Numbered from the stretch's first letter, positions 8,766-30,774 are shown. The stretch is 35,485 nt of DNA from a virus (IMGVR_UViG_3300043778_000099:1-35485); one strand, 5' to 3'. Made by a program: numbers and translations. The notes: generated by a model from the letters alone, not told the origin.

Positions 8766-8803
8766 GACGGATATACTTCCTGTCGTTAACCTTGCACAAG
8801 TTC

Positions 8804-8832: not shown

Positions 8833-8848
8833 CGTCCAAACAAACCAA

Positions 8849-9277: not shown

Positions 9278-9337
9278 CCCTTCCCCCGCCCCAGGCCAGG
9301 GCGGTATCGAGCTGATTTGTGACAAACGGTACGGAAA

Positions 9338-11650: not shown

Positions 11651-11680
11651 GCTGGCGATCCTTGCGAGTGAGACGTGGGG

Positions 11681-14332: not shown

Positions 14333-14445
14333 GATTCGGATTGGTAACGTTCGCGGGCGCGCTCACGCCAGGCCATCAGCTCGGCGAGCGTGAAGTCGTA
14401 CATCGCGCCGGGGGGCCAGTGGAACACCAGCGCGATGTCGGCCAT
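14329..14445 (-). CDS. gpE' (GpE family tail protein)
   Basis: This 38-residue ORF was found by reading the gap before the tape measure gene. It matches the GpE family: MADIALVFHWPPGAMYDFTL then ELMAWRERARERY. In P2-like phages this sequence is made mainly as the C-terminal extension of gpE by -1 frameshifting, giving the second tail assembly chaperone. The frame is open from the slippery site at 14499-14505 through this ORF, and its stop overlaps the tape measure ATG. Confidence 0.85.
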   Translation of the reverse strand: MADIALVFHWPPGAMYDFTLAELMAWRERARERYQSES

Positions 14446-14453
14446 CGGGTCTT

Positions 14454-14789: not shown

Positions 14790-14815
14790 GATGGAGTCGT
14801 TCTCGCCGAAGGGGA

Positions 14816-15325
14816 TCAGAGGCCGATCGCTTTGCGCAGCGACCCGAGCAGGTCGACGCCGTTGACGGTCTCGACCATGTTGATGAAGTCGAACTCGTGA
14901 ATCACCTGGCCGTTGATCGTGAGCTTGTAGTAGCTTGCCTGCGTGGTGACCTTGAACGCGGTGTCTTCCTTCGACTTGGCCGTGCCGAGGTCGATCTCCG
15001 AATGGCGGCCGCGGATCACGATCTCGACCGCGTCCGGGCGCGCTGAATCCTCGCCCTGGTAGGCGCCGGCGAAGCGCAGCTGCACGCCATCGTGGGTCGT
15101 CACGCCCCATTGCGACAGCACGCCGCGCATCAGGCCGCCGCAGGTCCATTCGAGCTGGATCGCTTCCTGGCCCCAGTCGACCTTGATCGGGCCGGTCATG
15201 CCGCCCGCGATGTAGTCCTCCATCTTGCGCGACAGCTTCGGCAGCGTGATTTCCGCGACCTGGCCGACGTACGCGTTGCCGTCGTTGAACAGCATGTAAT
15301 TCTTGAGTTTGCGAGGCATACCCAT
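14816..15325 (-). CDS. FII: Major tail tube protein gpFII
   Basis: This 169-residue protein has the FII signature: MGMPRKLKNYMLFNDG, then VAEITLPKLSRKMEDYIAGG and a closing INMVETVNGVDLLGSLRKAIGL. It polymerises into the inner tube of the contractile tail. It lies directly after the sheath gene, 32 bp away, as in P2. Length is normal for the family. Confidence 0.95.
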   Translation of the reverse strand: MGMPRKLKNYMLFNDGNAYVGQVAEITLPKLSRKMEDYIAGGMTGPIKVDWGQEAIQLEWTCGGLMRGVLSQWGVTTHDGVQLRFAGAYQGEDSARPDAVEIVIRGRHSEIDLGTAKSKEDTAFKVTTQASYYKLTINGQVIHEFDFINMVETVNGVDLLGSLRKAIGL

Positions 15326-15357
15326 GTGAGTGCTCCAGTGAAAGTGAGGACGGCGGA

Positions 15358-16530
15358 TCAGGCGGCGACGCGCGAGGCGAAATCGGCGAGGTAGCGATCG
15401 GTGATGCGCTGGCGCAGCGTCAGGTTCTCGATCGGCGGCACCGGCGTGTAGTCGTAGTCGATCGCGAGCTTGCCGGCCTTCAGCGCTTCCGGCGTGTTGA
15501 CGCTCTCGTCGTACCAGGCCGAGCCGCCGATCAGGTAGCCGTTCGCGATCAGTTCGCGGAACTTCGCGTTGATGCTTTCGATGATGTCGCGCACGAGCGA
15601 CGGATGCATCGGCTTGTCGACGTAGGCCATGTGCGCCTCGGCCATCGTGTCGGCCAGCACCTGCGCGGTGCGCGTGTAGTTCTCGAAGGCGAACAGCGGA
15701 TCGTCGGAGCAGGTGCGCGAGCCCCAGAAGCGGAAGCCGTTCGCGCGGATCAGCGTCGTCACGTCGTGCTCGTTCAGGTAGCCCGCGTCGGTCGCCGGGT
15801 CCTGCAGATCCCAGAACACGTCGCGGCTCACGCCCGTCACGCCGTTGATGCCGACGTTCGACAGCGACTTGTGCCAGCCGGTGTCCTCGTCGATCTTCGC
15901 GCGCAGGCCGAGCGCGATCGCGGTCGCGTCGATGACCGTGCTGCTGTTGGTCGCGGTGTCCCAGCCGAGGAATTCCGGCCACACCACCATCAGCTCGCGC
16001 TGGCTGAACTGCTTGCGGTAGGCGGTGACGTCCTCCTTGGTCTTCGCGCCGGCGGCCGACACGTAGGCGAAGCCGCGCAGCTTTTGCGCGAGTTCGGCGA
16101 GCGCGGCCGCGACCGGCTGCGAATCGAGGCCCGGCGCGCCGAGGATGCGCGGCTTCACGCCAAGCTTCGCCTCGGCCGTCAGCAGCGCCTTGAGGCCCGT
16201 GTACTGGCCGTCCGGCGTGACCGTGCCGACCACGTTCGAGGTGGTTTCCTCCGGGGTCTTGCCTTGCGGCACGCGGACCACGATGCACAGCGGCTTGGCC
16301 TGCTTGCTGATCGCGTCGAGCGAGCGCGCCAGTGTGCCCTTCGTGCCGGCCTTGCCGATCGCCTGCAGCACGTTCGTCAGCAGCACCGGCGTGTTGAGCG
16401 GGAAGGCTTTTTCGTCGGCGTCCTCGGCCGTGAAGACGCCGCCGATCACGGCCGTCGAGACGGTGCGGATCGGACGGGTGCCGTCGTTGGCTTCGATGAC
16501 GCGGACGCCGTGGTGGTAATCCTGGGGCAT
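15358..16530 (-). CDS. FI: Tail sheath protein gpFI
   Basis: This 390-residue protein opens with MPQDYHHGVRVIEANDGTRP and TVSTAVIGGVFTAEDADE. It also shows LGVKPRILGAPGLDSQPV, FWGSRTCSDDPLFAFENYTR and SINAKFRELIANGYL, all typical of P2 sheath proteins. It forms the contractile outer sheath. Full length and intact, so a working contractile tail is plausible. It follows the set-1 tail-fibre assembly gene. Confidence 0.96.
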   Translation of the reverse strand: MPQDYHHGVRVIEANDGTRPIRTVSTAVIGGVFTAEDADEKAFPLNTPVLLTNVLQAIGKAGTKGTLARSLDAISKQAKPLCIVVRVPQGKTPEETTSNVVGTVTPDGQYTGLKALLTAEAKLGVKPRILGAPGLDSQPVAAALAELAQKLRGFAYVSAAGAKTKEDVTAYRKQFSQRELMVVWPEFLGWDTATNSSTVIDATAIALGLRAKIDEDTGWHKSLSNVGINGVTGVSRDVFWDLQDPATDAGYLNEHDVTTLIRANGFRFWGSRTCSDDPLFAFENYTRTAQVLADTMAEAHMAYVDKPMHPSLVRDIIESINAKFRELIANGYLIGGSAWYDESVNTPEALKAGKLAIDYDYTPVPPIENLTLRQRITDRYLADFASRVAA

Positions 16531-16583: not shown

Positions 16584-17396
16584 TTAAGCCGCGGGGGCGG
16601 CGGGTTGCGGATCCGTTCCGGCGGGCGCCGCGGGGGCGGCGTCGCGGGACGGGGCCGGGGAAGACGCCGCCGGATCCGGTGACGCGTTCTTCGGAGGCGC
16701 CGTGGGCCCGGCGGGCTGGGCCGGCGTCGCGGGCGTATCGTCCTTCGGCGGTGCGGCCGGGTCGGGCTGGGGCGCGGGATCCGGCTTCGGCTCGGGCGTC
16801 GGCGGGGTCGGCTTCGGCGGCGGCGGCACGTAGGGCGCCGGTTCGGCGGGCCAGGTCACGCCTTCCGGGAAGCCTTCCTTCTCGACCTCGCGCACCAGCG
16901 CCATCTGGTAGGTGGACCACGCCTTGAAGTAGTAGACGCCCTCGTCGTCGAGCAGGCCGGCGGCGAGCGCGTCGGCCTTGCCGGCGTTCTGCTTGCGCGC
17001 GCGCGTCATGCGCAGCTCGAACTCGGCCATCGCGGCATCGTGCTTTTCGCGGGCGATCTGCTCGGGCGCGACACTCCAGCCGCCGTCGTGCCAGCTGTAG
17101 CGCTCGCTCGGGCGCGGCTGATCGGTGAGACCCTGTTCGTCCGGCGTCTTGCCCGCGACCACCAGTTCGGTCGGCAGGCCGTCGCTCTGGCGATACAGCA
17201 TGCGGCCGCGATAGTCGGGCAGCAGCGACCAGGCGCCGTCGCGGTAGAACGGCCAGGTGAACGGGGTGCGCGCGGGCGGCGCGTCGGTCGTGCTGAAGGC
17301 GGGGATCAGCCAGCGCGTGTCGTTGCGCGGATCGATGTCGGGCTGGCTGCTGCTCAGGTACTGGCCGGTGAGCGAGTCGTAGTGATGAATCAGCAT
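16584..17396 (-). CDS. Tail-fibre assembly-type protein, set 1 (gpG position) with proline-rich tail
   Basis: This 270-residue protein begins MLIHHYDSLTGQYLSSSQ and has FYRDGAWSLLPDYRGRMLY and a helical segment about 115-180, resembling tail-fibre assembly chaperones of Burkholderia phages. It follows the fibre gene, the usual place for its chaperone. The last 85 residues or so (from about 185) are a Pro/Ala/Asp-rich low-complexity tail. That tail is not typical of these chaperones and may be disordered. The chaperone call rests on position and N-terminal resemblance. Confidence 0.65.
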   Translation of the reverse strand: MLIHHYDSLTGQYLSSSQPDIDPRNDTRWLIPAFSTTDAPPARTPFTWPFYRDGAWSLLPDYRGRMLYRQSDGLPTELVVAGKTPDEQGLTDQPRPSERYSWHDGGWSVAPEQIAREKHDAAMAEFELRMTRARKQNAGKADALAAGLLDDEGVYYFKAWSTYQMALVREVEKEGFPEGVTWPAEPAPYVPPPPKPTPPTPEPKPDPAPQPDPAAPPKDDTPATPAQPAGPTAPPKNASPDPAASSPAPSRDAAPAAPAGTDPQPAAPAA

Positions 17397-17414: not shown

Positions 17415-20400
17415 TTAGTAAGCGCGGATCATCGCGAGCATCGCGATGTTGCGCGGGCGCGCTTCTTTGCCGCCGTCCGCGTTGACCGTGATGCCGTGGC
17501 TGTGGCGACCGCCGCCGCCGATCCCGATGGCGTGGTTGTGGGCGCCGCCGACGTCGGTCCAGAACTCGTGGTTGTGATCGCCCGCGGGCGACGTGTAGGC
17601 CCATGGGTTGTCGTAGTCGATGCCGCCGTGGGAGCCCAGCTGGGACCACGCGGCGACGCCCCACGGGGCGACGTTGACTTCCGAATACGGCGCGATGTGC
17701 TGGTGGTTGCCGTTGGCGCCCGTTACGCCGTGGTGGTTGTGCACGCCCTGTCCGTCGGCCCAGGCGTTGTGCACGTGATCGTCCGCCGTGCTCGACGAGG
17801 CGCCGTGCGCGTGCCAGATGTTCTGTGAGTCCTGATAGGTGCCGATGCGCCGCTGCGCGTCGATGTCGTCGCGGCCGTCGGCCCAGCAGCGGATGAATTC
17901 GCCGCGCAGCTCGGGGATGCGGAACGTGGTGGAGCCGTTACCGTCGGAGAAGCAGCCCCAGTTGCCGTTGGCCCAGTCCTTTTCGGCGACGAGCGCGCCG
18001 CTGGCCTGTGCGTAGGCCCACAGCGCGGGATAGTCGGCGCGATTGAGCGGCGCGCCGTTCGCTTTGACGAAGCCCGCGCGCGCGTTGGTGCGCGGCTCGA
18101 ACACGATCTGGCCGATCGAGGCGGCGGCGATCTCCGACGACACCCACGCGGTGGTGGGCACCCGGTTCGACTTTTCGCCGGCGGGCGGGTGAAGGCTGAA
18201 CGCCGGCTGGTCGAAGTACGTGCCTTCCGGGGCGAAGTGAACGGTGCCGATGCCGTTGCAGGTCACGCCGAAGTGGCCGTCGGCCATGTGATACAGGCCG
18301 GTGTCGGGCGCGCCGTCGTTGATGAAGGTCAGCGACGGCGCGCTCGCGCTGCCTTCCGACAGGAAGATGCGCTTGCCGGGCGCGAAATTGAGGTCGCCGA
18401 GCATCTGGCCGCCGAGGTTGCGATCGAGCGGCGTGAGATTGCCCAGGTGCCAGACCAGCTGGCCGTCGACGCGCAGCGTGTGGTCGGTGGCGAAGTACTG
18501 GAGCGAGGCGCCTTTGTCCGGCCACCACCAGCCGAAGCTGTCCGCGTTGCCGTAGAGGTAGCCGGTGTTCGTGCCGAGGAAGATGTGACCTTCATTGTTG
18601 CCCCGGTTGACATGCAGATCGCTGCCGACGATGGCATTGCCGCCGATGTAGGTGTCGGCGCCATGGCTGGCGATCTTGACCGTGCCCGTGTCGAGCGACC
18701 ACGCGAAGGGCCGCAGGTCGTTGTAGCCCCCGAATGGATCGCCCTTGCTGGTGGACAGCAGGTAGACGTTCGAATCGTCGTTGCGCAGGAACGCGCCGTA
18801 GCTGGCGCCGGCGGCGCGGAACTGCCCGCCGTTGCCACGGTCGCTCCCGCGGCTGATCACGCCGTTCTTGACCTGCAGATCCTTTTCGATCGTGGTCGTG
18901 CCGTTGATGAAGGTCGGGGAGCCGTCGAAGGCGATCTTGACCGCGCCGTCTTCGAGCGACCACGAGAACGGCCGGTAGCCGTTGAAGGCGCCGTAGGGAT
19001 CGCCCTTGTTCGTGGACAGCAGATAGGCGTTGCTGTCGTCGATGCGCAGGAACGCACCGAAGTTGTTGCCGGCGGCGCGGAATTGACCCCCGTTGGCATG
19101 GTCGAGCCCCCGGCTGATCACGCCGTTGGCGAATGCGGCATTGCCGTTGACCTGCAGCAGGTTCTTGCCGTCGTCGTTCAGCGAGCCGATCAGCACGCGC
19201 CCGGCATTCGTGACCCGCATGCGCTCCGCGCCGGCCGTGATCAGCGAGGTCCAGCCCTTGCCGTTGCCGCCGAGGAAGGCCTGGCCATCGCCCGATGCGT
19301 AGTAGTACGCGGTGGCCTGGTCGCTGTTCACCACGGCCTTGGTCGTGCCGCGCCCCGCCTGCAGCGCACCCGAGGTGCCGATGTCGCCGGCCACCTGGAG
19401 CAGGTTCGCGCCGTCGTCGTTGACCGTGCCGAGCATCACGCGGCCGCCGTAGGGGGCGAGCGAGATCGGCTTCTTCACCGTGTTGTCCACGTTGAAGGCC
19501 TCGATGGTCAGGCCGTCGTAATTGTTCGTGTTGAACGCGGCGATCGCGTTGCCCGCCACGTTGATCACCCGCCGGAAACTTCCGCCGCCGTCGACCTGAA
19601 GCGCGCTGGCGTCGCCGTGGGGCAGCTTGCCGATCACCACGGTGCCCTGTCCGGTGAGACGCATCACGCGGCTTTGCTTGTTGTCGTGGTTGATGTCGTT
19701 CCCGGCGCTGTTGAGCCAGAAGTCGAGGTATTCGCGGCCCCAAAAGCCGTTGTCGAAGCCCGAGCGCACGGTGGCGACGAGGCGCGTCCCGGTGTCGGCC
19801 GTCCCGCCGCCGAACGTGCCGTAGAAGCGCAGGCGGCTTTCGCGTCCCAGCGCGCCCGACGGCGGGCGCAGGTGAAGGTGGGCGGTTTCCGGGCCCGCAT
19901 CGAAGTCGATCGCGACCGGCCCCACGAAGGTCGCGCCCGTCTTCGCCGCGTAGCGCGAGGCCGCCGTCTTCGGCGTCAGCGCGCGCGTCGCGTCCTGGCC
20001 CGCGTTGACCTCGTCCTGCGTGGCCAGCTCGATCACGCCCGTGATCTCGGTCGTCGCGGGCGGATTGACGAACGACGCGTCGCCGATCGTGATCGCGCCC
20101 GCGTCGATCGACACGAACTGGATGTCGGCCGACAGCAGCAGGTCCGCCGACGGCGACTTCTCCATGATCGGCGCGTCCTGGGAATAGACGGCGAACAGCA
20201 CGCCGTTCTCCAGGTACAACCCCATGCCGAACAGCACGTACTGGTCGGCGGTGGCGTCGTTGATGGTCAGGTGCAGCGTGTCCGGGCTGATGTTCCGGCC
20301 GCCGATCGTCCTGATGCGCTTCTTTTCCCCGGGCAGCGCCAGCAGGTCCTTCGACGGCGTGAACTTGACGGTGCTCAGCCCGATCTCGACGACCTGGTGC

Positions 20401-20474
20401 GCGGTGGTGCCGGTGTTGCCGCTCGCGACGAGCGCGGCGCGGCCGGCATCGGTGACGGTGAAGATTGCAGCCAT
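17415..20474 (-). CDS. H: Tail fibre protein, set 1 (gpH position)
   Basis: This 1019-residue fibre starts with a P2/pyocin-type baseplate-attachment domain (about 1-150: FTVTDAGRAALVASGNTG...). The shaft is long and repetitive; residues 452-518 and 539-605 are two close copies of one unit (VISRG...GGQFRAAG...LLST.KGDP). A tail-collar domain lies at about 784-865 (GFVKANGAPLNRADYPALWA). The tip is rich in HxH motifs (residues 888-993), as in fibres whose trimers bind metal. It decides which cell surface is recognised. It belongs to the set containing gpW, the more P2-like arrangement. Confidence 0.92.
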   Translation of the reverse strand: MAAIFTVTDAGRAALVASGNTGTTAHQVVEIGLSTVKFTPSKDLLALPGEKKRIRTIGGRNISPDTLHLTINDATADQYVLFGMGLYLENGVLFAVYSQDAPIMEKSPSADLLLSADIQFVSIDAGAITIGDASFVNPPATTEITGVIELATQDEVNAGQDATRALTPKTAASRYAAKTGATFVGPVAIDFDAGPETAHLHLRPPSGALGRESRLRFYGTFGGGTADTGTRLVATVRSGFDNGFWGREYLDFWLNSAGNDINHDNKQSRVMRLTGQGTVVIGKLPHGDASALQVDGGGSFRRVINVAGNAIAAFNTNNYDGLTIEAFNVDNTVKKPISLAPYGGRVMLGTVNDDGANLLQVAGDIGTSGALQAGRGTTKAVVNSDQATAYYYASGDGQAFLGGNGKGWTSLITAGAERMRVTNAGRVLIGSLNDDGKNLLQVNGNAAFANGVISRGLDHANGGQFRAAGNNFGAFLRIDDSNAYLLSTNKGDPYGAFNGYRPFSWSLEDGAVKIAFDGSPTFINGTTTIEKDLQVKNGVISRGSDRGNGGQFRAAGASYGAFLRNDDSNVYLLSTSKGDPFGGYNDLRPFAWSLDTGTVKIASHGADTYIGGNAIVGSDLHVNRGNNEGHIFLGTNTGYLYGNADSFGWWWPDKGASLQYFATDHTLRVDGQLVWHLGNLTPLDRNLGGQMLGDLNFAPGKRIFLSEGSASAPSLTFINDGAPDTGLYHMADGHFGVTCNGIGTVHFAPEGTYFDQPAFSLHPPAGEKSNRVPTTAWVSSEIAAASIGQIVFEPRTNARAGFVKANGAPLNRADYPALWAYAQASGALVAEKDWANGNWGCFSDGNGSTTFRIPELRGEFIRCWADGRDDIDAQRRIGTYQDSQNIWHAHGASSSTADDHVHNAWADGQGVHNHHGVTGANGNHQHIAPYSEVNVAPWGVAAWSQLGSHGGIDYDNPWAYTSPAGDHNHEFWTDVGGAHNHAIGIGGGGRHSHGITVNADGGKEARPRNIAMLAMIRAY

Positions 20475-20477
20475 GTA

Positions 20478-21020
20478 TTAAGCCTCTGTCATGCGGATGC
20501 GGCGATAGGCGGCCATGCGTGCCACCGCGCCGAAACGTTGCGTGGTGTTGATCGCGAACCCCTGCGTGAACGAGTAGTGCGCGCGCACGGGCTTGGTCCG
20601 GTCGATTTCGGCCAGGATGTCGGCGACGTAGTCCGCGGTGGGCGGCTGACCGTCGCGGCTGCTGACGGTCATCACGATCGAGAACGTGCCGGGCTTGCCG
20701 GGCGGGTTGGTCTCGAACCATTCGCGCAGCACGATGTTGCCGCCGAAGGTCGCGACCACCTCGCGCACGGCCGCGGCCGTGCCGTTGCGGCGCGCGATCG
20801 GGATCGCGGCCTTCACGCGCGCGCGCTTGATCTGCTCGGGCCAGTAGTCTTTCCAGGCGTCGACGCCGAGCTGCCACGCGAGCCACGGCAGCAGCGCGGC
20901 CGGGATGCGGTCGGCGTTCATCAGGTCGCGGATCGGCGAGGGCAGGTCGCTGATCCGGCCGTTCACGGCCGCGATGCGCCGCTCGTGGCGCGATGCGTTC
21001 GGCGCGAGCAGGTCATCCAT
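20478..21020 (-). CDS. I: Baseplate/tail protein gpI, set 1
   Basis: This 180-residue protein has the gpI pattern: LLAPNASRHERRIAAVNGRI, ALLPWLAWQLGVDAWKDYWP and RRNGTAAAVREVVATFGG. gpI forms part of the baseplate wedge and joins fibres to it. It overlaps gpJ by eight bases and stops four bases before the fibre gene. A second, diverged gpI is at 24503-25069. Confidence 0.92.
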   Translation of the reverse strand: MDDLLAPNASRHERRIAAVNGRISDLPSPIRDLMNADRIPAALLPWLAWQLGVDAWKDYWPEQIKRARVKAAIPIARRNGTAAAVREVVATFGGNIVLREWFETNPPGKPGTFSIVMTVSSRDGQPPTADYVADILAEIDRTKPVRAHYSFTQGFAINTTQRFGAVARMAAYRRIRMTEA

Positions 21021-21921
21021 AGATGCCGCCGTGCCGGATCGCGGCGTCGACGCAGTACGCCGCCTGCGTCCGGTTGATCGCCACGTTCGCGGCCGGCTCG
21101 TCGAGCTGGACGCGCTCGACGCCTTCCACGTGCAGCGCGGCGTAGATGCCCGACAGCGTGATCTCGCGGCCGAGGCGATGGGCGTCGGAGACGTAGCGCG
21201 CGAGACGCGCGCGGGCCTCCGCGAGCACGACGCCGGAGTCCGGCCCCGGGAAGGTGTAGAGCGTCGCGCTGACCTTGTACGGCACGATCTGTGCGCTCTG
21301 CACGGTGACGCAGTCGGTCAGCGGCCGGACATTGTCGGCCTTCAGCGCGGCGGCGACCGCGTCGATCAGGCGCGCATCGGCCGTGCCGTCGCCGTCGCGC
21401 GACAGGATCGTGACGAGCACTTCGCACGGCGCGGGGCTCGTCGCCGAGGCGTCGAGCACGCGGCCGTCGGTGTTCAGCGCATGCGAGATGTACGCGCCTT
21501 CCGGGCCCGCGACCGAGTACCCCTGCGGCGCGAGCTGGGTGCGCTTGCGCAGGTCGACGTCGCTTTCCATCACGGCCGGGATGCCCTGTTCGGGAATCGC
21601 CGGCGACAGCACCAGGCGCTCGATGGCGAAGAAGGCCGCGAGCTGGTCGAGATCGCGGCCGGTCGCGTAGGCGAGCATCACCGCGCGCGCCGCGTCGTTG
21701 ATGCGCTGGCGCAGCACGATCTCGCGATACGCGCTTTCCTGGAGCAGTACCAGCATCGGTTCGGATTCGAGCTCGAGCGTCGCGCGCACCTCGGCCTGCT
21801 GGCCCGCCGGATAGAGCGCGATCAGGCGCGCCTTGCGCGCCGCGAGCAGCGTGTCGTAGTCGAGCTGCTCGACCACGTCGGGGGCGGGCAGGCGGGACAG
21901 GTCGATCGGGGTCGCGCTCAT
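21013..21921 (-). CDS. J: Baseplate wedge protein gpJ, set 1
   Basis: This 302-residue gpJ family protein (IDLSRLPAPDVVEQLDYDTL, ESAYREIVLRQRINDAARAVMLAYATG, LAPQGYSVAGPEGAYISHAL, EVLVTILSRDGDG) forms the baseplate wedge with gpW and gpI. It overlaps gpW by four bases (ATGA), the normal P2 W-J junction. It matches the set-2 copy at roughly half of its positions, so the two are old relatives and not a recent duplication. Confidence 0.93.
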   Translation of the reverse strand: MSATPIDLSRLPAPDVVEQLDYDTLLAARKARLIALYPAGQQAEVRATLELESEPMLVLLQESAYREIVLRQRINDAARAVMLAYATGRDLDQLAAFFAIERLVLSPAIPEQGIPAVMESDVDLRKRTQLAPQGYSVAGPEGAYISHALNTDGRVLDASATSPAPCEVLVTILSRDGDGTADARLIDAVAAALKADNVRPLTDCVTVQSAQIVPYKVSATLYTFPGPDSGVVLAEARARLARYVSDAHRLGREITLSGIYAALHVEGVERVQLDEPAANVAINRTQAAYCVDAAIRHGGIYG

Positions 21922-22280
21922 ACGGTGGGTCTCGCATCGAGTTGCACGCGCGTCGAGACCGGTTCGCCGGTCTCGGTTGTCACGCCTTCGATCTCCAGCG
22001 TCTGCGCGCCGGCGACCAGTTCGTCCGTCGACGCGTCGAGCTGCACGCGCGTGAGTTTCAGGCGCGGTTCCCAGCGCATCAGCGCAGCGGCGACCGCGGC
22101 GTACAGGCGCACGCGGGCCGCGCCGTTGTTGGGCGCGTCGATGAGATCGGGCAGCTCGGAGCCGAAATCGCGGCGCGCGATGCGCGTGCCGAGCGGCGTG
22201 GTCAGGATCTTGCCGATCGACTGGTAGAGATGGGGCAGGCCGCTCAACGCGCGTCCCGTGGTGGCGTTGAGGCCTTTCAT
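21918..22280 (-). CDS. W: Baseplate protein gpW (gp25-like)
   Basis: This 120-residue protein carries the GPW/gp25 signature: SIGKILTTPLGTRIARRDFGSELPDLID. It is a lysozyme-like-fold wedge protein that starts sheath assembly. It is the only copy in the window. In P2 it follows V directly; here four genes of a second J-I-H-G set separate it from V. Its start overlaps the stop of a 26-codon mini-ORF (22277-22357) that may be the vestige of an earlier V gene. Confidence 0.92.
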   Translation of the reverse strand: MKGLNATTGRALSGLPHLYQSIGKILTTPLGTRIARRDFGSELPDLIDAPNNGAARVRLYAAVAAALMRWEPRLKLTRVQLDASTDELVAGAQTLEIEGVTTETGEPVSTRVQLDARPTV

Positions 22281-22357
22281 CGGCGGGCCTCCACGTCGGC
22301 GCGGCGAGCCGGGCTCGGGGCGGGGGCGATCGAAGGCGAAGCGAGGCGTGCGTTCAT
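22277..22357 (-). pseudogene. 26-codon mini-ORF before W, possible remnant of a V gene start
   Basis: An ATG at 22357 opens a 26-codon frame (MNARLASPS...) that ends by ATGA overlap with gpW. Both its start and the roughly 70 bp upstream (22351-22420) resemble the start of gene V and its upstream spacer (26646-26717). Shared anchors are CGTTCATGC, GCGGCGC, GCGCACG, CGGCG and CCGGCGCG, in the same order. V also begins MN-x-R. The simplest reading is a scar left when a V-to-G block was placed upstream of W. High GC makes chance similarity possible. Confidence 0.45.
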
Positions 22358-22437
22358 GCTTCGATGGTGCCGGGCCGTCGCGGCGCGCGCACGCGACGGC
22401 GTGTGTGCCCGGCGCGAGTACAGCGCGCCGGCGGCGC

Positions 22438-22890
22438 TCAGTCGCGCGGCGCGAGGAACGCGGGCGGCGCCGGCAGATCGAGATCCGGCCAGCTCGGCTG
22501 GGCCGGCGCGTCGCGCAGCGCGGCGCGATACGCGAGCAGCACGGTGAATTGCTCGGCGCTCAGGGTCGTGCCGCGCGCGAGCAGCAGTTCGTCCTGGTGC
22601 CGGGCCACGACGCCGTCGGTGGTGCGCAGCGTCGCGTCGCGCGCACTGCGCAGGCGCCGCGCGCGCTGCTCGGCGCTGAGCGGGATCGAAGGCGGATCGA
22701 CCAGGGTCGGGGCGTGCGACGCGTCGAGCGCCATGCGCCGGCCGGCCGCCTGGCCCGCGAGCAGCATCGCGTAGTCGGTGTCGGAGAGCGCGATCGCGGC
22801 GACGTCCGCGGGCACCGGGCTGTCGACGTCGTCGTACAGGCCGGTGATGAAAAGCTGGGCGTCGTAGGACGCGAATTTCTGACCCATCAT
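22438..22890 (-). CDS. Tail-fibre assembly chaperone, set 2
   Basis: With the ATGA-overlap start at 22890 the protein has 150 residues. It opens MMGQKFASYDAQLFITGLYD and continues with DVAAIALSDTDYAMLLAGQAAG and a C-terminal helical segment containing SAEQFTVLLAYRAALRD. That matches small phage tail assembly chaperones encoded after fibre genes. It differs in sequence from the set-1 assembly protein, which fits each fibre having its own chaperone. GGGGA lies three bases before the ATG. Confidence 0.75.
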   Translation of the reverse strand: MMGQKFASYDAQLFITGLYDDVDSPVPADVAAIALSDTDYAMLLAGQAAGRRMALDASHAPTLVDPPSIPLSAEQRARRLRSARDATLRTTDGVVARHQDELLLARGTTLSAEQFTVLLAYRAALRDAPAQPSWPDLDLPAPPAFLAPRD

Positions 22891-24506
22891 TGTCCCCAGG
22901 CGAAGTAGAAGGCCCACATAGGCGTGTTGGCCAGGCGGCACGACAGGCCCATGGCGGCGGTCGTGCGCGACGGCAGCGCCAGGACCCAGGCGGTCTCCTG
23001 CATATAACCGCTCACATCGCCTGGCGTGGCTACGATTCCGAAGCAGGCATTCGGAAATGCGATCGGAAAATTGACCGGGATGACGTTCTCGCTGATGCCG
23101 TCGATCACGGTTCCCTGCGTCGAGCCGGAATAGAAGCCCATCTGCAGGATCAGGCCGCTCGGCAGCTTCTGGTAACTGCCGCCGGCGGTGAGACCCGCGC
23201 CGAATGCACCCGTGTAGCGCAGCTGGGCGGTGCCCTGGCTGACGAGCCAGGTATTGCGCCCCGTCGACACGAGCCGCGCGCTGTCGCCTGACGCGAGCAC
23301 CGGCGACAGCGCGGGCGCGCTGCCGATCACGTAGATCGTGTTGCCGCTCGCCGGCGCGAGCGTGACCGCGCCCGGCCCGCCGTTGACGAGATCGATCACG
23401 CTGCCGGGCGGGAGATCGGGCGTGTCGGCGGGCAGCGTGAGCGTGATCGCGCCCGCGGCGTTCGTCTGGATGAACTGGCCGACATGCTTGTCGGTCAGCG
23501 TCTGCGATGCGTTCAGCGACAGGTAGCCTGCGTGATTGCCCGCCGCGCGGCGCACGAATTCGGTGGTCGCGATGCGCGCGCCGCTATCCGTCAGGGGCGG
23601 CGTCGGCGCTTTTGGCGCTCCGGTCAGCGCGGGGGAATCGAGCGGCGCGACGGTGGCCCAGTCCGCTTCCTGCGAATACAGCGACGGCGCCGGGCCCTGC
23701 TCGATCTTGATCGCACGCACGGCGCAGCCGAATGCGGGCGCGAGCGGCCGCGCGTCGGCAGCCTTGATCGCGCGGACCTGCGTCGTGCCGGGCGGCGTGA
23801 CCCCGCTCGCGCTGCGGTACTGCCAGCCGTTCGCGCCCGCGTCGAGCAGGCACTGCGCGACGTCGCCGATCGGCTGGCCCGCTGCGTCGAGCGCCTGCAG
23901 CCGCACGCGCACCGTGCCGCGCGTCATGCCGTAGGCGTACAGCTCGGCGGACAGCGCGAGGTTCACGCCCGCGTTGCACGGCAGCGGCGCGCCGAGGTCC
24001 TGCAGCAGATCGCCGCCCGTGATCGGCGCGAGGTTCACGAACTGCGGGCCGTCGCCCCAGTTGCCCGACGCCGCAGGCAGGTTCGCGCTGCTCCAGGCCG
24101 CGTTGCCGAGTTCCCCCGAGCCGTTCGGCAGCAGGTTCGGCCGGTTCACGCCGTTGAGCTTGCCCTGCGCCTGCACGCCGGCTGCGAGCGCCGCCGCGAC
24201 GAAGCCGGTGTTCGCGGCCAGCGTCGACGCGTCGCCCCCGGGCGCGTCCGGCACGCGCACCGCGCCGCGGAAGGTCGGCGAATCGAGGTCGGCCTTGGTG
24301 GTCTGCAACGACTTCGATGCGTATTGCGGATGCGGGTCCGCGCTCGCGAAGTGCGCCTCCTGGGTGTCCTTCAGGTAGCGCGTGCGGTTCGCGAGCTGCC
24401 GGGCCTGCACGTTGTCGATGCCGTCCGGTCCGCCCTCGACGGGGTCGGACGTCTCCAGCTGATAGATGCCGGACTCCCACTTCCCGGTTTCGGTCAGGTT
24501 CGTCAT
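22887..24506 (-). CDS. Tail fibre protein, set 2
   Basis: The protein, from MTNLTETGKWESGIYQLETS, has 539 residues. N-terminal residues 1-60 (WESGIYQLE...DPVEGG.DG..N.QA.QLANRTRYL) are the attachment region found in many phage and pyocin fibres. The middle has beta-rich shaft and carbohydrate-binding-like segments. The C-terminal part (ETAWVLALPSRTTAAMGLSC...WAFYFAWGQ) resembles gp53-type receptor-binding tips. It is about half the length of the set-1 fibre and unlike it in the tip, so the two should recognise different receptors. Overlaps gpI2 by four bases. Confidence 0.88.
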   Translation of the reverse strand: MTNLTETGKWESGIYQLETSDPVEGGPDGIDNVQARQLANRTRYLKDTQEAHFASADPHPQYASKSLQTTKADLDSPTFRGAVRVPDAPGGDASTLAANTGFVAAALAAGVQAQGKLNGVNRPNLLPNGSGELGNAAWSSANLPAASGNWGDGPQFVNLAPITGGDLLQDLGAPLPCNAGVNLALSAELYAYGMTRGTVRVRLQALDAAGQPIGDVAQCLLDAGANGWQYRSASGVTPPGTTQVRAIKAADARPLAPAFGCAVRAIKIEQGPAPSLYSQEADWATVAPLDSPALTGAPKAPTPPLTDSGARIATTEFVRRAAGNHAGYLSLNASQTLTDKHVGQFIQTNAAGAITLTLPADTPDLPPGSVIDLVNGGPGAVTLAPASGNTIYVIGSAPALSPVLASGDSARLVSTGRNTWLVSQGTAQLRYTGAFGAGLTAGGSYQKLPSGLILQMGFYSGSTQGTVIDGISENVIPVNFPIAFPNACFGIVATPGDVSGYMQETAWVLALPSRTTAAMGLSCRLANTPMWAFYFAWGQ

Positions 24507-25069
24507 GAATGGATCGTTCCTCGGTTGTATTGGCGATCGCGGCGGGCCGCCCCGTTGTGACGGATCGGGCTCGCGCGATAGTCGAGCAGCGCGAGATGCG
24601 AACGCTGCGGCGCGTAGCGTTCGAGCATCGCGCGCAGGTTGTCGGCCTGGTCGCGCGTGATCGCGCGCGTGAGCCGGATCAGGTATTCGGCCCAGGCGTC
24701 GGCGCGGCCATGCACGTAGTCGCCGTTGCGGCGCATCGCGCCGTCGCGGCGACGGATCAGCCGGCCCTCGATCAGCGCGACCTCGCCGAAGCCGAGCCGC
24801 CGGATCACCTCGCGCACCGCCCACGGCGTGCCGCGCTTGCGATGCAGCTCGATCGCGCCGCGAATCAGCGCGCGCCGCGCATCCTCCGATTCCGCCAGCT
24901 CCCAGCCGTCCACCGAGACCTCGGTGGCCAGGTAGGGCAGCAGCGGCACGGGGCAGCGCGCGGGATCCCAGTACGCGCGCAGCGGGACCGGCAGCGTGTC
25001 GACGCGGCCCAGCGCGTGGGCGACGCGGCGTTCGAGCGGCGTCGCGTTCGGCGGCAGCAGGTCAGTCAT
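24503..25069 (-). CDS. Baseplate/tail protein gpI, set 2
   Basis: This 188-residue gpI family protein (LLPPNATPLERRVAHALGRV, PVPLLPYLATEVSVDGWEL, RKRGTPWAVREVIRRLGFG) is homologous to the set-1 gpI but strongly diverged, especially after residue 110. It overlaps gpJ2 by eight bases and the fibre gene by four. It probably fits the set-2 fibre onto the baseplate. Confidence 0.9.
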   Translation of the reverse strand: MTDLLPPNATPLERRVAHALGRVDTLPVPLRAYWDPARCPVPLLPYLATEVSVDGWELAESEDARRALIRGAIELHRKRGTPWAVREVIRRLGFGEVALIEGRLIRRRDGAMRRNGDYVHGRADAWAEYLIRLTRAITRDQADNLRAMLERYAPQRSHLALLDYRASPIRHNGAARRDRQYNRGTIHS

Positions 25070-25973
25070 CGACGCCGCCGTCGAGAATCTCGATGCCTTC
25101 GCAATACGGCGCGGCCGTGGTGCTGGTCACGAGATCGACGGCCGGCTCGCTCAGGTCGGTGCGCGTGATGCCCGCCGCCTGGATCACGCCGATCAGCGCG
25201 GAGGTCGCCACCTTGGCGCCGATCCGGTGCATCGCGTCGACATGTGCGCGGACGTTGTCGCGCGCGCGCCGGACCAGCAGCTCCGCGCCGACCGGTGATT
25301 GCGTGAAGACGGTCGCGCGCACCCGATAGCGGACGATGTCGGCCGACGCGACCTGCACGGTGTCGTTCAGCGGCCGCTGATCCTCCGCGCTCAGTGCGCG
25401 CGCGACGGCGTCGAGCAGGGCCGGCGGCGCCGTGCCGTCGCCGTCGCGCGCGAGCAGCGTGACCAGCACGTCGCCGGGACGCGGACGCGAACTGCGCGCG
25501 TCCAGCAGGCGGCCGTCGACGGCGAGCGCGCGCGACACGTAGGCGGCCGCCGGGCCCGCGGTGCTGAAGCCCTGCGGCGCGAGTTGAATGCGGCGGCGCA
25601 GGTCGGCGTCGCTTTCGTATTGAGCGGGGATCTGGCCGGCGGGGTCGCCGGGCGCGACGACGAGCCGCTCGACGCCGAACAGCGCGGCGCGCTGTTCGAG
25701 GTCCGCGCCGGTCGCATAGGCGAGCATCACGGCGCGCAGCGCGTCGTTGACGCGTTGCCGCCAGACCAGCTCGCGATAGCAGTTCTCCTGCAGCAGGCGC
25801 GCGAGCGGCTCGGATTCAAGCGCGAGCGTGGCGGCGATGCCCGCGCGTTCCTCCGCGGGCCACAGCGCGATCAACGCGGCCTTGCGCGCGGCCAGGAGCG
25901 CTTCGAAATCCAGCATCTCGAGCGCGTCGGGACGCGGCAGGCTGGCGAGGTCGATCAGGGCGGACAGGCTCAT
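25062..25973 (-). CDS. Baseplate wedge protein gpJ, set 2
   Basis: This 303-residue gpJ family protein (IDLASLPRPDALEMLDFEAL, YRELVWRQRVNDALRAVMLAYATG, LAPQGFSTAGPAAAYVSRAL, DVLVTLLARDGDG) has the same architecture as the set-1 copy at 21013-21921. It sits directly after V with a 13-bp gap, where W would be in P2. No second W is present, so either both J proteins use the same W or this set assembles without its own. Confidence 0.92.
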   Translation of the reverse strand: MSLSALIDLASLPRPDALEMLDFEALLAARKAALIALWPAEERAGIAATLALESEPLARLLQENCYRELVWRQRVNDALRAVMLAYATGADLEQRAALFGVERLVVAPGDPAGQIPAQYESDADLRRRIQLAPQGFSTAGPAAAYVSRALAVDGRLLDARSSRPRPGDVLVTLLARDGDGTAPPALLDAVARALSAEDQRPLNDTVQVASADIVRYRVRATVFTQSPVGAELLVRRARDNVRAHVDAMHRIGAKVATSALIGVIQAAGITRTDLSEPAVDLVTSTTAAPYCEGIEILDGGVDD

Positions 25974-25986
25974 GGGCGGCGCGGCG

Positions 25987-26652
25987 TCACAGCGGCGGGC
26001 TCGTGACCGCGTTCTCGCCCTGCGCGCGGTGCGTGTGGCCGGGGAGGCTCTTGCCTTGCGCGCGCACGTCGCCGCTGAATTCGGCGGCGCCGTCGATGCG
26101 CATCGTCGCGCCGCCGCCGCCGCCCTTGCCGGTCATGCCGGCCTGGAACTCGAAGGCGCCCTGCACGAGCAGCGAGCCGGTCACGGTGGTGGCGCCCGCG
26201 TCGATCGTCACGGTCTCGGCCTTGAGCGTCGCGGCCCGGGTCCGCACCTCGACCGAGCCGGGTGCGATCACGGTGAGCGTCGCGCCGGCCGGCAGCTCGG
26301 CGGTGAGTGCGTGCGCGGCATGGTTGTAGTCGATGCGCGCGCCGTCGGGATAGACGCGCGTGTGCGTGTCCGGGCTGTCGCCGGGCGCGCCGGCCGCATC
26401 CGAGAACACCCCGCGCAGCACGACGCCCTGCGCGGGGTCGCCGCTTTCCGACAGCAGCACCGCCTGCTCGCCGACGGTGGGCGGCAGCCATTCGCGCGTG
26501 GTGCCCGCGGCGGGCGTGAGCCAGCTCAGCCAGTCGGTCTGCAGCTCGCCGCTCTGGAAGCGGCACAGCGCGCGCGCGTGGTCGACCGCCATGATGCTGC
26601 CACGGCGGATCTGGTTGAGCATGAGGCGGGTCGATTCATTGCGGTCGTTCAT
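25987..26652 (-). CDS. V: Baseplate spike protein gpV
   Basis: This 221-residue protein starts with MNDRNESTRLMLNQIRRGSI, followed by an OB-fold domain (DWLSWLTPAAGTTREWLPPTVGEQAVLL; about 40-100). A beta-helical spike follows, ending in GHTHRAQGENAVTSPPL. The HTH motif near the end is the iron-binding tip typical of P2 gpV. It is the membrane-piercing tip of the tail. Only one spike gene is present for both J-I-H-G sets. Confidence 0.93.
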   Translation of the reverse strand: MNDRNESTRLMLNQIRRGSIMAVDHARALCRFQSGELQTDWLSWLTPAAGTTREWLPPTVGEQAVLLSESGDPAQGVVLRGVFSDAAGAPGDSPDTHTRVYPDGARIDYNHAAHALTAELPAGATLTVIAPGSVEVRTRAATLKAETVTIDAGATTVTGSLLVQGAFEFQAGMTGKGGGGGATMRIDGAAEFSGDVRAQGKSLPGHTHRAQGENAVTSPPL

Positions 26653-26717: not shown

Positions 26718-27155
26718 TCAGCCGAGGATCGTGCCGGGCGGCGCATAGAGGCCGGCGATCGACCAGGCCGGAGCCGGTTCGGACGGATGCTCGCCGCGCC
26801 GGCCGCCGTCGGGCAGGGTCGTCACGACGACCGGTTCCGACAGCTTCACGCGCAGCATCAGCCGGGGCGCGCCGTTGTCGGGCGTCATGTCGAAGGTCAC
26901 GCCGGTCTCGCGTTCGTCGGTCCGCAGCGGCAGCGCCGGCTCGTGCTCGGCGAGCCACGCGACGAGGGCGATCGCGAACGGATCGGGATCGCCCGGCGCA
27001 TCGCGCAGCGTGACGTTGAGCACGTAGCGGTATTCGAACGAGGGCGACGGCGCGCCGGTGGCGACGAGCGCGCCCTGCTCGATCGACACAGTGAGCTTGT
27101 CGGGCGACGCGCCCGCGGCGACGAGCGCACGGCGCAGACTGTCGGGTTTAATCAT
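26718..27155 (-). CDS. R: Tail completion protein gpR
   Basis: This 145-residue protein is similar to P2 gpR: MIKPDSLRRALVAAGASPDKL, then a beta segment FEYRYVLNVTLRDAPGDPDPFAIALVAWLAEHEP. In P2 it acts in tail completion. It follows the spanin genes and overlaps Rz1 by eight bases. In P2 the next gene is S; here the next gene is V, 65 bp further, so S is missing. Confidence 0.85.
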   Translation of the reverse strand: MIKPDSLRRALVAAGASPDKLTVSIEQGALVATGAPSPSFEYRYVLNVTLRDAPGDPDPFAIALVAWLAEHEPALPLRTDERETGVTFDMTPDNGAPRLMLRVKLSEPVVVTTLPDGGRRGEHPSEPAPAWSIAGLYAPPGTILG

Positions 27156-27417
27156 GGACGGACTCCTGGTCGGACTGGCAGACGACGATCGTGTCGACGA
27201 CCGCCGCGCATTCGGCCCACGCGCTTTCGGCGCGGGCGAGCGCGGCGCGCAGATCACCGTTGTCGCGTAGTGAGGTCGCCGGCAGCGTGCAGCGGCTCGC
27301 CGGCGCGCATGAATTCAAGATAGGAGCCGGCGCCGGTGAAGGCGGGGTGCTCGTGCAGGCGCACAACATCATCAGGCAGGGCAGCAGACGCCCACTCGCG
27401 CAGCTTCGCATGGTCAT
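27148..27417 (-). CDS. lysC: Rz1-like outer-membrane spanin lipoprotein
   Basis: This 89-residue protein has a short hydrophobic signal and lipobox LCAC with C21 (LLPCLMMLCACTSTPPSPAPAP), followed by a proline-rich stretch, the hallmark of Rz1. It begins inside the Rz gene in another frame (27254-27417 shared) and runs past its end. With Rz it would span the periplasm and fuse the inner and outer membranes at the last step of lysis, releasing tails from the cell. Confidence 0.82.
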   Translation of the reverse strand: MTMRSCASGRLLPCLMMLCACTSTPPSPAPAPILNSCAPASRCTLPATSLRDNGDLRAALARAESAWAECAAVVDTIVVCQSDQESVHD

Positions 27418-27694
27418 TCTCGAGTCTCCGGTAAGCGCTTTCCCGCGCGGCGAGCGTCGCGCGGGCCGTGTCGCGCGTGTGTTCGAGCGCGGCGAGCCGG
27501 ACGCGCGCGGCGGCTTCGAGTGCGCGGCGCGCGGCGAGTTCGCGGTCGCGGGCCGCGACCGCGGCTTCCGCCGTCAGGCGGGCGGTGCGGGCGGCGTCGA
27601 GTTCGGCGCGCAGCAGGCGCACGTAGGCGAGCGCGCCGCATGCGGCGGCGAGGGCGAGCAGCAGCGCGACGCCGCGCGACAGCCACGGGCTCAT
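27254..27694 (-). CDS. lysB: Rz-like inner-membrane spanin
   Basis: This 146-residue protein has one N-terminal membrane helix (about residues 6-26: SRGVALLLALAAACGALAYV). A long Ala/Arg/Glu-rich coiled coil follows (about 28-110) and ends in WASAALPDDVVRLHEHPAF, as in Rz/LysB proteins. Start overlaps the endolysin stop by four bases. It pairs with the overlapping Rz1-like gene. Confidence 0.85.
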   Translation of the reverse strand: MSPWLSRGVALLLALAAACGALAYVRLLRAELDAARTARLTAEAAVAARDRELAARRALEAAARVRLAALEHTRDTARATLAARESAYRRLENDHAKLREWASAALPDDVVRLHEHPAFTGAGSYLEFMRAGEPLHAAGDLTTRQR

Positions 27695-28479
27695 GCGGGG
27701 CGCGCGTACTGCGCGTAGACGCGCGCGAGCTTCGCGTCGTACTGATTGCGCGCGTAGTCCGGGCCGTTGTAGCCGCGCGCGAACGCGGCCCAGGCCTGGC
27801 GGCGCAGCGCGTCGAGCAGGGTCGGGTCCGCGCCCACGAAGCGCGCGAACGCGTCGAGCTGCTCGGCCGCGCCGGCGCGCATGCGCAGCACGAAATCGTC
27901 GATGCTCGCGTAGCCGAGCCGCGACCAGTGAAAGCCCATGATCTGGAACGCGCCCCAGCTGGCGGCTTCGTCGGCCGCGGCGAGATCGATCGCCTCGGCG
28001 CGCGCGAGGCGCGCGTATTCGGCGGCGCCGCCTGCATAGCCTCCCGGCGTGGTCGCGAGAATGTCCGGACAGGACGCGGCGAGCGGGGCGGGTGCGATGC
28101 CGCGCGCGGCGAGCCGTTTCCAGAACTGATGCCGTTCGAACAGGATGACGGGGCGGCCGTCGGGCAGGAAGCCGTTGCCGCGCGATTCGACCTCGGCGAC
28201 GGCTCGGACGGCGGCGAGCGGCGCGTCCAGGCGCGCGGCGACGGCGGCGAGCTCCGCCGCTTCGAGCGGCGCCGGCTGGACCGCGCGTTCGAGCGCGATC
28301 CAGGTCGCGGGGCCGGCGATGCCGTCGACGGCGAGCGCGCGATCGCGTTGCAGCGCGATCACGGCGCTTTGCGTGACGGCGTCGAAGCGGCCGGTCGCGA
28401 CGAGCGGATAGCCGGCGCGGGTCAGCTGGCGTTGCAGCAGGGCGACGTCCGGCCCGGCGTCGTTCAGGCGCACGGTCAT
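27691..28479 (-). CDS. Endolysin: peptidoglycan-binding domain plus N-acetylmuramidase (DUF3380)
   Basis: The start at MTVRLNDAGPDVALLQRQLT gives 262 residues. Residues 1-65 are a PG-binding-1 domain (LLQRQLTRAGYP...ALQRDRALAVDGIAGPATW). Residues about 80-260 are an N-acetylmuramidase domain, with likely catalytic E98 in EVESRGNGF and then ILFERHQFW, ASWGAFQIMGFHW and ARGYNGPDY. It cuts the cell wall to release particles. There is no signal peptide or SAR segment, so it depends on the holin. It overlaps both its neighbours by four bases. Confidence 0.93.
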   Translation of the reverse strand: MTVRLNDAGPDVALLQRQLTRAGYPLVATGRFDAVTQSAVIALQRDRALAVDGIAGPATWIALERAVQPAPLEAAELAAVAARLDAPLAAVRAVAEVESRGNGFLPDGRPVILFERHQFWKRLAARGIAPAPLAASCPDILATTPGGYAGGAAEYARLARAEAIDLAAADEAASWGAFQIMGFHWSRLGYASIDDFVLRMRAGAAEQLDAFARFVGADPTLLDALRRQAWAAFARGYNGPDYARNQYDAKLARVYAQYARPA

Positions 28480-28748
28480 CGCGCGCCCCGCAGGAGGCGC
28501 GCGACGTTGCCGCGCACGCCGAATACGAAGACACACAGCAGGGCGGCCCGCAGCGCCTCGACGGTCGAGATCCCGGCTTCGTGGACGAGCGCCTGGAACG
28601 CCGACCAGCCCGACACGACGACGAGCATCCACGCGACCCAGGCCACGCCGTGACGATGCCGAGCGCGACCGCGCCGATAGGTCAGCAGCCGCATGCAGAC
28701 CAGCAGATAGGCGATGAAGGCGGCGAGTGCAGGCGGATTCTCGAGCAT
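28476..28748 (-). CDS. Holin-like membrane protein (phage holin family)
   Basis: This 90-residue protein has three hydrophobic stretches (about 8-23, 35-52 and 62-78) separated by short basic loops (YRRGRARHRH, RGNVARLLRG). It resembles small phage holin families found next to P2-like endolysin genes. It overlaps the endolysin start by four bases. It may be the holin or an antiholin partner of the following 111-residue membrane protein. Confidence 0.75.
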   Translation of the reverse strand: MLENPPALAAFIAYLLVCMRLLTYRRGRARHRHGVAWVAWMLVVVSGWSAFQALVHEAGISTVEALRAALLCVFVFGVRGNVARLLRGAR

Positions 28749-28755
28749 GGCAGGC

Positions 28756-29091
28756 TCACTTCCTGAACAACGAGAGCAGATCGAACGACTTGATGCGCTC
28801 GATCAGCTGCAGGGTGAAGGTGATCGCGAGTGCCGAGGCGAAGAAGGCGGCGACGCCGGTCGAATGGATCGGAGTCGCCTGGATGACCTCGGGGGCGGAC
28901 TGATAGCCGACCGTGATCGAAATCAGCAGGTACGCGAAGCGTTGCAGGATCGACACGTCCTTCGACGTGACGACGACGAGCGCCGCACCGGTGAATGCGC
29001 CGAGCAGCGCGTTGCCGTCGATGCCGGGCATCAGGCCCGCGACGCCGATGGCGGCTGCTACGGAAAAGGTGGTGGTGCTCGGTTCGGCCAT
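28756..29091 (-). CDS. Phage holin (gpY position)
   Basis: The protein from MAEPSTTTFSVAAAIGVAGL has 111 residues. It has three probable membrane segments: about 8-22 with 25-40, 46-60 and 80-97 (GVAAFFASALAITFTLQLIE). The end is a charged SFDLLSLFRK. Position after gpX matches gene Y, the P2 holin. It would form the membrane lesions that let the endolysin out. The longer frame to 29154 adds only Arg/Ser-rich sequence and was rejected. Confidence 0.8.
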   Translation of the reverse strand: MAEPSTTTFSVAAAIGVAGLMPGIDGNALLGAFTGAALVVVTSKDVSILQRFAYLLISITVGYQSAPEVIQATPIHSTGVAAFFASALAITFTLQLIERIKSFDLLSLFRK

Positions 29092-29107
29092 TGGCGCGGC
29101 TCCAGGG

Positions 29108-29314
29108 TTAATCGAAGAGTTGCAGGAGCGGGACCGGCTTTTGCGCGGCGGCAAGCTCGGGCATGTCGACCGCGACGCCGATGGGCAGCATGGGGCCGTG
29201 GTCGGCGAGGCCCGTGTTGTGTTCGAGCACGGCCTCGACCATGCCGCGCGTGCGGCCGTAGTGACGCCAGCACATGGCGTCGACGGTGTCCCCTTGTTGC
29301 GAACGGATGATCAT
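29108..29314 (-). CDS. X: Tail protein gpX (LysM-like)
   Basis: This 68-residue gpX family protein (MIIRSQQGDTVDAMCWRHYG then VLEHNTGLADHGPMLPIG) has a LysM-like fold and acts in tail assembly. It is the first gene of the surviving late operon. In P2 it is preceded by head genes Q-P-O-N-M-L; here there is nothing head-like between it and the att core at 29643. Confidence 0.92.
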   Translation of the reverse strand: MIIRSQQGDTVDAMCWRHYGRTRGMVEAVLEHNTGLADHGPMLPIGVAVDMPELAAAQKPVPLLQLFD

Positions 29315-29838: not shown

Positions 29839-30774
29839 TCACCCCAACTTCAGCAGATCCCGATACGCATCGATGTGCTGATACCCGGCCTGCCCGGTGA
29901 ATTTTCGATAGTTGTGGCCTTCATTCTGCACGCCCTCGAGCCGATGCGAGGTGCCGCAATGGGTATATCCCAGATCGAGCGCGACGACATCCCGCACGAT
30001 CTTCTTGATGTAATCCGGCGTGCCGATGTCGTGGTAAAGCGAATCGATCTGCTTCAGGTCGCTGCTGTTCCACGCGTGCGGAACGATATCGAGCGAATTC
30101 CACACGCGCGTCAGCTTGCCCTGCAGCACGCTGTCCGAATAGCGCGCGAAGGCCGCATTGCCGGCGGTCGCGCCGGCGAAGGCGTAACAGCTGAGATTCG
30201 CGGCCAGCTTGCCGAGTGTCTCGTGAAAGAGCAGCGCGAGCGTGGCCGCCATGGTGCCGCCGAGGCTGTGCCCGGTGATCGTCAGCCGGGCGGTGGCGGG
30301 AAGCGCGCTCAGCACATCGGTCAGCTTGCCCGTGCCCGGATTCAGCGAGGATGGGGTTGTCAGAACGGCTTGCAGGCCGATGTCCGTTGCCGGGGAAATC
30401 AGCGCGGGAGACGGGCAGCCCGAGACGTATTGCTGGAACGGGACGAGCGGAGGCAGCACGTCGAGATCCTCGAGACCGACTTCGAGCAGCGCGAGGAAGT
30501 TGGTTCCGCTCGTCGCGACCCGGTAATCGTCGGGGTCCTGCGTCCCCTGCAGGACGGCCGTGACGTTGGCGGGGAATCCGCTGGGGTCCATGTAGACGGA
30601 GGGTCCCCAGATGATCGTGTATTGGTCCCGGGTAAGGGACGAGGCCTTGAGTGCGGCCTGAATTTCCTTTTGCAGCAGAACCGGGGTGATGTTCATCTGG
30701 TTCTGCCCGACATTGGTCGCGTAGGCGAGGGTGAGATTGAGTTGAAGATCGTGGAAGACATCTCTCCGTGACAT
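29839..30774 (-). CDS. Class 3 lipase family protein
   Basis: This 311-residue alpha/beta hydrolase has GHSLGG with nucleophile S170. Probable acid D229 is in NSLDIVPHAW and probable histidine H300 in QHIDAY, the fungal lipase-like (class 3) arrangement. There is no signal peptide, so the site of action is unclear. AGGAGGT lies seven bases before the ATG, a strong ribosome binding site. It stands alone just outside the element. A short diverged copy of its NSLDIVPHAW region occurs at 32031-32095. Confidence 0.85.
   Translation of the reverse strand: MSRRDVFHDLQLNLTLAYATNVGQNQMNITPVLLQKEIQAALKASSLTRDQYTIIWGPSVYMDPSGFPANVTAVLQGTQDPDDYRVATSGTNFLALLEVGLEDLDVLPPLVPFQQYVSGCPSPALISPATDIGLQAVLTTPSSLNPGTGKLTDVLSALPATARLTITGHSLGGTMAATLALLFHETLGKLAANLSCYAFAGATAGNAAFARYSDSVLQGKLTRVWNSLDIVPHAWNSSDLKQIDSLYHDIGTPDYIKKIVRDVVALDLGYTHCGTSHRLEGVQNEGHNYRKFTGQAGYQHIDAYRDLLKLG

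Follow-up and report, generated by a model that had tools for sequence, protein, structure and literature searches.

A second, phage-derived wedge-fibre cassette in a predicted P2-like R-type tailocin locus of Burkholderia

The window, by which we mean the whole stretch of DNA analyzed, is an IMG/VR record of 35,485 nt (68% G+C) with its main gene block on the minus strand. In the direction of that strand, the block runs through X, holins, muramidase, spanin-like genes, R and V to J2-I2-H2-G2, followed by W, J1, I1, H1, G1, FI, FII, E, T, U and D. Beyond D lie two plus-strand genes at 8792-10063 (the first has no family match and is repressor-like by position only), an Ogr-type gene, the gene for a 922-aa Toprim replication protein and an integrase gene. 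The features of the block are listed below; T and D were assigned from their position and their similarity to relatives.

26718-29314, minus strand: R, lysis genes (muramidase, holins) and X; no head gene past X
25987-26652, minus strand: V, baseplate spike, single functional copy (Pfam Phage_base_V 2.7e-15, phrog_9992)
25062-25973, minus strand: J2, wedge scaffold, second cassette (Baseplate_J 2.3e-21, phrog_6; PDB 6u5b Tri1a PA0618 3.2e-68)
24503-25069, minus strand: I2, wedge/fibre-dock, second cassette (Tail_P2_I 9.1e-37, phrog_48; PDB 6u5b Tri2 PA0619, residues 3-94)
22887-24506, minus strand: H2, shorter fibre (539 aa) with Gp53-like C-terminal tip (phrog_4209 3.3e-72, PF21882 2.1e-13)
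22438-22890, minus strand: G2, fibre assembly chaperone, 150 aa (phrog_188 1.8e-26; Phage_tail_APC 3.3e-5, slightly under the Pfam cut-off)
22277-22437, minus strand: G2-W gap with V-leader copy and 26-codon ORF (22277-22357), probable relic of the resident V
21918-22280, minus strand: W, gp25-like sheath initiator, one copy for both cassettes (GPW_gp25 1.2e-14; PDB 6u5b PA0617)
21013-21921, minus strand: J1, wedge scaffold, resident cassette (Baseplate_J 1.4e-23, phrog_6; PDB 6u5b Tri1a 2.7e-90)
20478-21020, minus strand: I1, wedge/fibre-dock, resident cassette (Tail_P2_I 8.1e-47, phrog_48; PDB 6u5b Tri2 3.9e-23)
17415-20474, minus strand: H1, long fibre (1019 aa) with collar domain and internal tandem repeat (phrog_4849, Collar, Gp34_trimer)
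16584-17396, minus strand: G1, fibre assembly chaperone, 270 aa, of another family than G2 (phrog_105 1.4e-46, Caudo_TAP)
15358-16530, minus strand: FI, sheath (Pfam match)
10150-16530, minus strand: shared tail body FI, FII (tube), E, T (tape measure), U and D (hub) (Pfam for FI, FII, E, U)

The order V-[J2-I2-H2-G2]-W-[J1-I1-H1-G1] proposed in the initial annotation was borne out, and all eight cassette genes are open. The interval assigned there to the second cassette, 20478-25973, does contain it, but also takes in W, J1 and I1; the cassette proper spans 22438-25973. J1 and J2 are 53% identical over 296 aa, close to the earlier estimate of about half of positions, and the fibres are, as claimed, unequal in length (H1 1019 aa, H2 539 aa), with unrelated N-termini (15% identity). 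Genes within both cassettes are joined by few-base overlaps or gaps, the exception being 18 bases between H1 and G1; such short junctions are typical of co-translated operons. Terminator matches were fewer than expected by chance. Within H1, a tandem 260-bp repeat (window 18607-19127, 77% identical) corresponds to an internal duplication of approximately 87 residues.

The window carries the genes of a contractile tail (sheath, tube, hub, spike, wedge and fibre) and its own lysis genes, namely a muramidase and two holins. Family scans of the ORFs revealed no head genes from the integrase up to X, nor on the far side of X, a stretch occupied by a lipase-like gene and then by chromosomal genes. 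The P2 capsid family PF05125 was found in all five single-cassette J2-type records, but neither in the window nor in any of the 16 dual-cassette virus records searched. Since head genes are lacking, the locus corresponds to a Burkholderia P2-like R-type tailocin, not to the phage that it had been taken for, and is predicted to make headless tails that kill rival bacteria. An intact P2-like temperate phage with two cassettes is ruled out by the missing head and packaging genes, and two adjoining prophages by the single V, W, sheath, tube and hub. The lipase (class 3)-like gene adjoining X (window 29839-30774) is also found in Burkholderia genome G077, and was not seen beside X in other tailocin loci.

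G077 has the window locus at approximately 100%. Beyond the integrase, the left flank is about 81-96% similar (main blocks) in G077, G023 (B. ubonensis), G035, G047 and G062, and its neighbours are, as we take it from their sequences, a UvrD/Rep-like helicase and a cytochrome c gene. Similar left flanks at the same site in these genomes indicate one resident element inherited at a fixed position. Indeed, the resident locus occupies this chromosomal site in several species, mostly with one cassette, and the integrase gene is still present in this fixed-site headless element. The integrase and the Toprim protein (window 3272-4357 and 5048-7816) are 75-82% identical in other species. At the left edge of the window, a DUF6119/TIGR04141 gene (277-1905), absent from the equivalent flank of G077, is probably a separate insertion. 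An assembly artefact is ruled out for the cassette order, since it recurs unchanged in L059, a separate assembly from B. multivorans WS-FJ9 (proteins V to H1 87-98% each), and in the near-identical genome G077 (locus L105).

The double cassette is not unique to the window, for it recurs, differently ordered, in a second lineage. Of 65 Burkholderia genomes, five carry J genes in tandem: G077 and G022 (WS-FJ9) share the window's order, and G023, G035 and G047 carry R-[J2-I2-H2-G2]-V-W-[J1-I1-H1-G1], with the second cassette between R and V, an order that also occurs in 16 virus records. Dual-cassette loci form two lineages, that of the window (including B. multivorans WS-FJ9) and a B. ubonensis group. 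Among 399 genomes sampled from the family, tandem J was seen only in G023, G035, G047 and G077; among 369 genomes from the class, only in the centre genome G023; and a further virus scan, covering 80 loci, gave tandem pairs in just two ubonensis-type records, both among those above. Locus L206 has two J genes on opposite strands and is thus not a tandem cassette, and a Pseudomonas luteola plasmid with three J places has one cassette in the stretch read. The capsid-bearing relatives examined each have one cassette and no tandem J, as do eight headless relatives in carrying one cassette each. None of 350 phage records with a J has a second J place, so that two sets as a standard arrangement of intact phages, envisaged in the initial annotation, were not encountered. 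Because many of these records are closely related, only two lineages stand behind the link between dual cassettes and headlessness, which is no more than suggestive.

In the J phylogeny, which had been put forward as a check, J1 and J2 fall into separate clades, and J2 groups with cassettes of intact phages. The J2/I2 clade includes intact, capsid-bearing Burkholderia/Paraburkholderia P2-like phages (L003, L004, L061, L062, L166 and L167) whose J2-I2-H2-G2 genes are homologous to the window's (J 62-69% identical); these phages differ from the window in having a single J2-type cassette in the ordinary order V-W-J-I-H-G. The second cassette is thus foreign and phage-derived, as initially claimed, and an internal tandem duplication is ruled out by the separate J clades and the different fibre and chaperone types. 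The cassettes of the ubonensis group nest within the intact-phage J2/I2 clade, adjoining L003, a phage whose IMG genome number is the same as that of the dual tailocin L012. The window cassette lies outside the intact-phage/ubonensis clade (support 98/94). Forcing the two tailocin groups together gave AU test p values of 0.031 on J+I and 0.056 on J alone; one acquisition common to both dual lineages is disfavoured, being rejected by the former and narrowly missing rejection by the latter. The J+I test suggests that the two lineages likely, though not certainly, gained the second cassette separately, in at least two acquisitions. Most dual loci of the ubonensis group also carry a decayed N-terminal piece of FI after G2 (at most 56% over 52 aa), the scar expected if a J-I-H-G-FI' block had been cut from a standard phage; in L005 it lies at 5697-5846, between G2 and V. 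Other gene orders were observed among the loci compared. In the P2-like elements L055, L056 and L069, the last from Sphingomonas, the order is R-J-I-H-V-W-FI, with the wedge-fibre genes ahead of V and W. In most of the Providencia-type loci L027-L031, L033, L035 and L063-L065, V-W-J-I and the group of U, FII and FI are on different strands, so that part of the tail operon is inverted.

The initial annotation had placed the insertion between V and W, but the R|V boundary is the more probable site. Within the 157-bp gap between G2 and W lies a 68-bp duplicate of the V leader with its ATGAACG; this match was the best of 876 windows of equal length and was reached by none of 2000 shuffles. With a V-leader profile built from relatives, the gap was again the top match in the whole window, albeit a weak one (E 0.17 window-wide). 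A 26-codon frame runs from the ATG of the leader copy to the start of W, which it overlaps by ATGA, the overlap that V itself makes with W in most relatives. The leader copy suggests that V-J2-I2-H2-G2 probably entered upstream of the resident V, which then collapsed to a relic; the site would in that case equal the R|V boundary used in the ubonensis group. Alternatively, the copy could be a retained start signal for a W-J1 unit.

Purifying selection acts on both cassettes. In the comparison of the window with WS-FJ9, dN/dS values were 0.18 for J1 and 0.14 for J2, 0.20 for I1 and 0.28 for I2, 0.35 for H1 and 0.32 for H2, and 0.12 for W, and pairs within the ubonensis group gave similar values for J and I. 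G2 showed the weakest constraint in the window lineage (0.62). Both fibres have hypervariable tips: in the ubonensis group, mean identity falls from 97% over the first 100 residues to 53% over the last 150 for H1, and from 77% to 37% for H2. A conserved N-terminus with a variable tip is the usual mark of receptor-binding tips. In the otherwise near-identical G077, G2 has a 158-bp out-of-frame deletion relative to window 22438-22890 which, if a genuine loss and not an assembly error, would disable the chaperone of the second fibre. Together with the weak constraint on G2, it suggests that the second cassette may be dispensable.

J, I and W are recognized, by sequence alone, as the R2 pyocin baseplate proteins PA0618 (Tri1a), PA0619 (Tri2) and PA0617 (sheath initiator). 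In the related phage XM1, the baseplate has six wedges, each of two J-like proteins and one I-like protein; spikes attach via the I-like protein, and adjoining wedges are fastened by dimers of the C-terminal domain of the J-like protein (PMC10457771). Over the core bundle, middle and C-terminal segments, J1 and J2 show identities of 0.60, 0.64 and 0.33, respectively, as compared to C-terminal identities of 0.43-0.46 among Burkholderia J1-type proteins of equal total divergence. I1 and I2 lose similarity towards the C-terminus (identity 0.49, then 0.22), the lower value applying to the half in which the fibre is expected to be held.

These observations can be accommodated if a resident P2-like R-type tailocin gained a whole J-I-H-G module from a P2-like phage of another type, with a single spike, hub, W, tube, sheath and lysis set serving both modules. 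We infer that the two sets are co-expressed, are compatible with one W and sort into two particle types. Each J-I pair would probably build on the common W and hub and carry its own fibre only, and rings would close with their own kind, as six J1/I1/H1 wedges with long fibres or six J2/I2/H2 wedges with short ones. As J-J contacts close the rings and J1 and J2 differ most in the domain that makes them, mainly uniform particles are expected, and one induced cell would release two target ranges. We lean, if only modestly, towards this reading of an acquired second module that co-assembles with the shared W and hub into mainly two uniform particle types, and consider it likely that the two cassettes give one weapon a wider target range.

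The same proteins could also be built into one particle. J1/I1 and J2/I2 wedges may sit around one hub, giving a tail with H1 and H2 that needs, or can use, two receptors; the 60-64% identity of J1 and J2 over the core bundle and middle segments would permit mixed wedges or rings, a single W and a single hub serve both sets, and H1 is longer than H2 in every locus measured. The divergence of J is, however, concentrated in the inter-wedge dimer domain, and J1-J2 identity among tailocins is no higher within genomes (52-54%) than between genomes (51-56%), which gives no sign of co-adaptation. We thus regard mixed particles as doubtful. Put in its strongest form, with a baseplate of two wedge kinds and a particle that reads two receptors through long and short fibres of independent origin, the proposal seems to us unlikely.

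Two further readings dispense with simultaneous use. Were only one set built into particles, the second cassette would be a passenger heading for loss, as the frameshifted G2 of G077, the dN/dS of G2 and the lack of a detectable G2 homologue in some ubonensis-group loci might suggest. However, in both lineages J2, I2 and H2 are constrained to roughly the same degree as their resident counterparts, many ubonensis-group records are dual with intact J2 and I2, and the H2 tips are still diversifying, which makes a passenger improbable. The sets could instead be switched, by inversion, recombination or separate promoters, with one kind made per cell at a time, and the V leader copy upstream of W may indeed give each cassette its own start signal. 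Against this, no invertible repeats flank the cassettes, the only inverted pairs being weak ones (22-34 nt, 74-82%) elsewhere, so that a DNA inversion switch is ruled out; no invertase is found among the annotated ORFs of the window, so that both marks of the invertible-fibre systems of Mu and carotovoricin are lacking; no consensus promoter match was found; in the window lineage, the sequences ahead of V, J2 and W showed no P2-type Ogr site (pattern TGT-N12-ACA); and J1-J2 recombination would delete W. Switching is, in our judgement, highly improbable.

Tailocins widen their target range by swapping or adding fibres, and the window has two fibre genes, each paired with a chaperone (H1/G1 and H2/G2), a multi-fibre arrangement known here from the genes. 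BceTMilo, a P2/KL3-like myotailocin of Burkholderia cenocepacia, resembles the window in being a headless P2-like tail locus with KL3-like synteny that has kept its lysis genes and lost its head genes; compared by description only, the part of that account used here describes no second J-I-H-G set (PMC5411513). In P. chlororaphis, where three fibres go into three distinct particles, a precedent for separate particle types (Dorosky 2017 and 2018, as described in PMC12090994), multi-fibre tailocins likewise give one locus several target ranges, through two complete tailocins sharing a lysis cassette or through extra fibre genes; unlike in the window, no duplicated J/I around one spike and W is mentioned in the portion of the article drawn on (PMC12090994). 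Xenorhabdicin, too, groups numerous genes for fibres and their assembly in a single P2-like tailocin locus, but the relevant section speaks of extra fibres and chaperones only, with no mention of wedge duplication (PMC13280938). Carotovoricin Er, as summarized in a later source, shares with the window two fibre tips in one locus, and differs in obtaining them by DNA inversion of the fibre end, for which the window has no signal (Nguyen 2001, via PMC12090994). A paper on the WS-FJ9 tailocin concerns another gene of a tail cluster (PMC12029163), and our searches of an open-access library turned up no account of a J-I-H-G module present twice, which is not proof of absence. Compared to these systems, what is new here is the unit gained, an entire wedge-plus-fibre module, probably taken up more than once in one resident locus. 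This suggests that a locus without a head may be less tightly held to one wedge set, and raises the concrete question of whether two foreign wedge sets can both work with one hub, spike and sheath initiator, and whether they segregate into particles of their own. J-I-H-G also stands out, beyond the fibres exchanged in known tailocins, as a unit that phages and tailocins naturally exchange.
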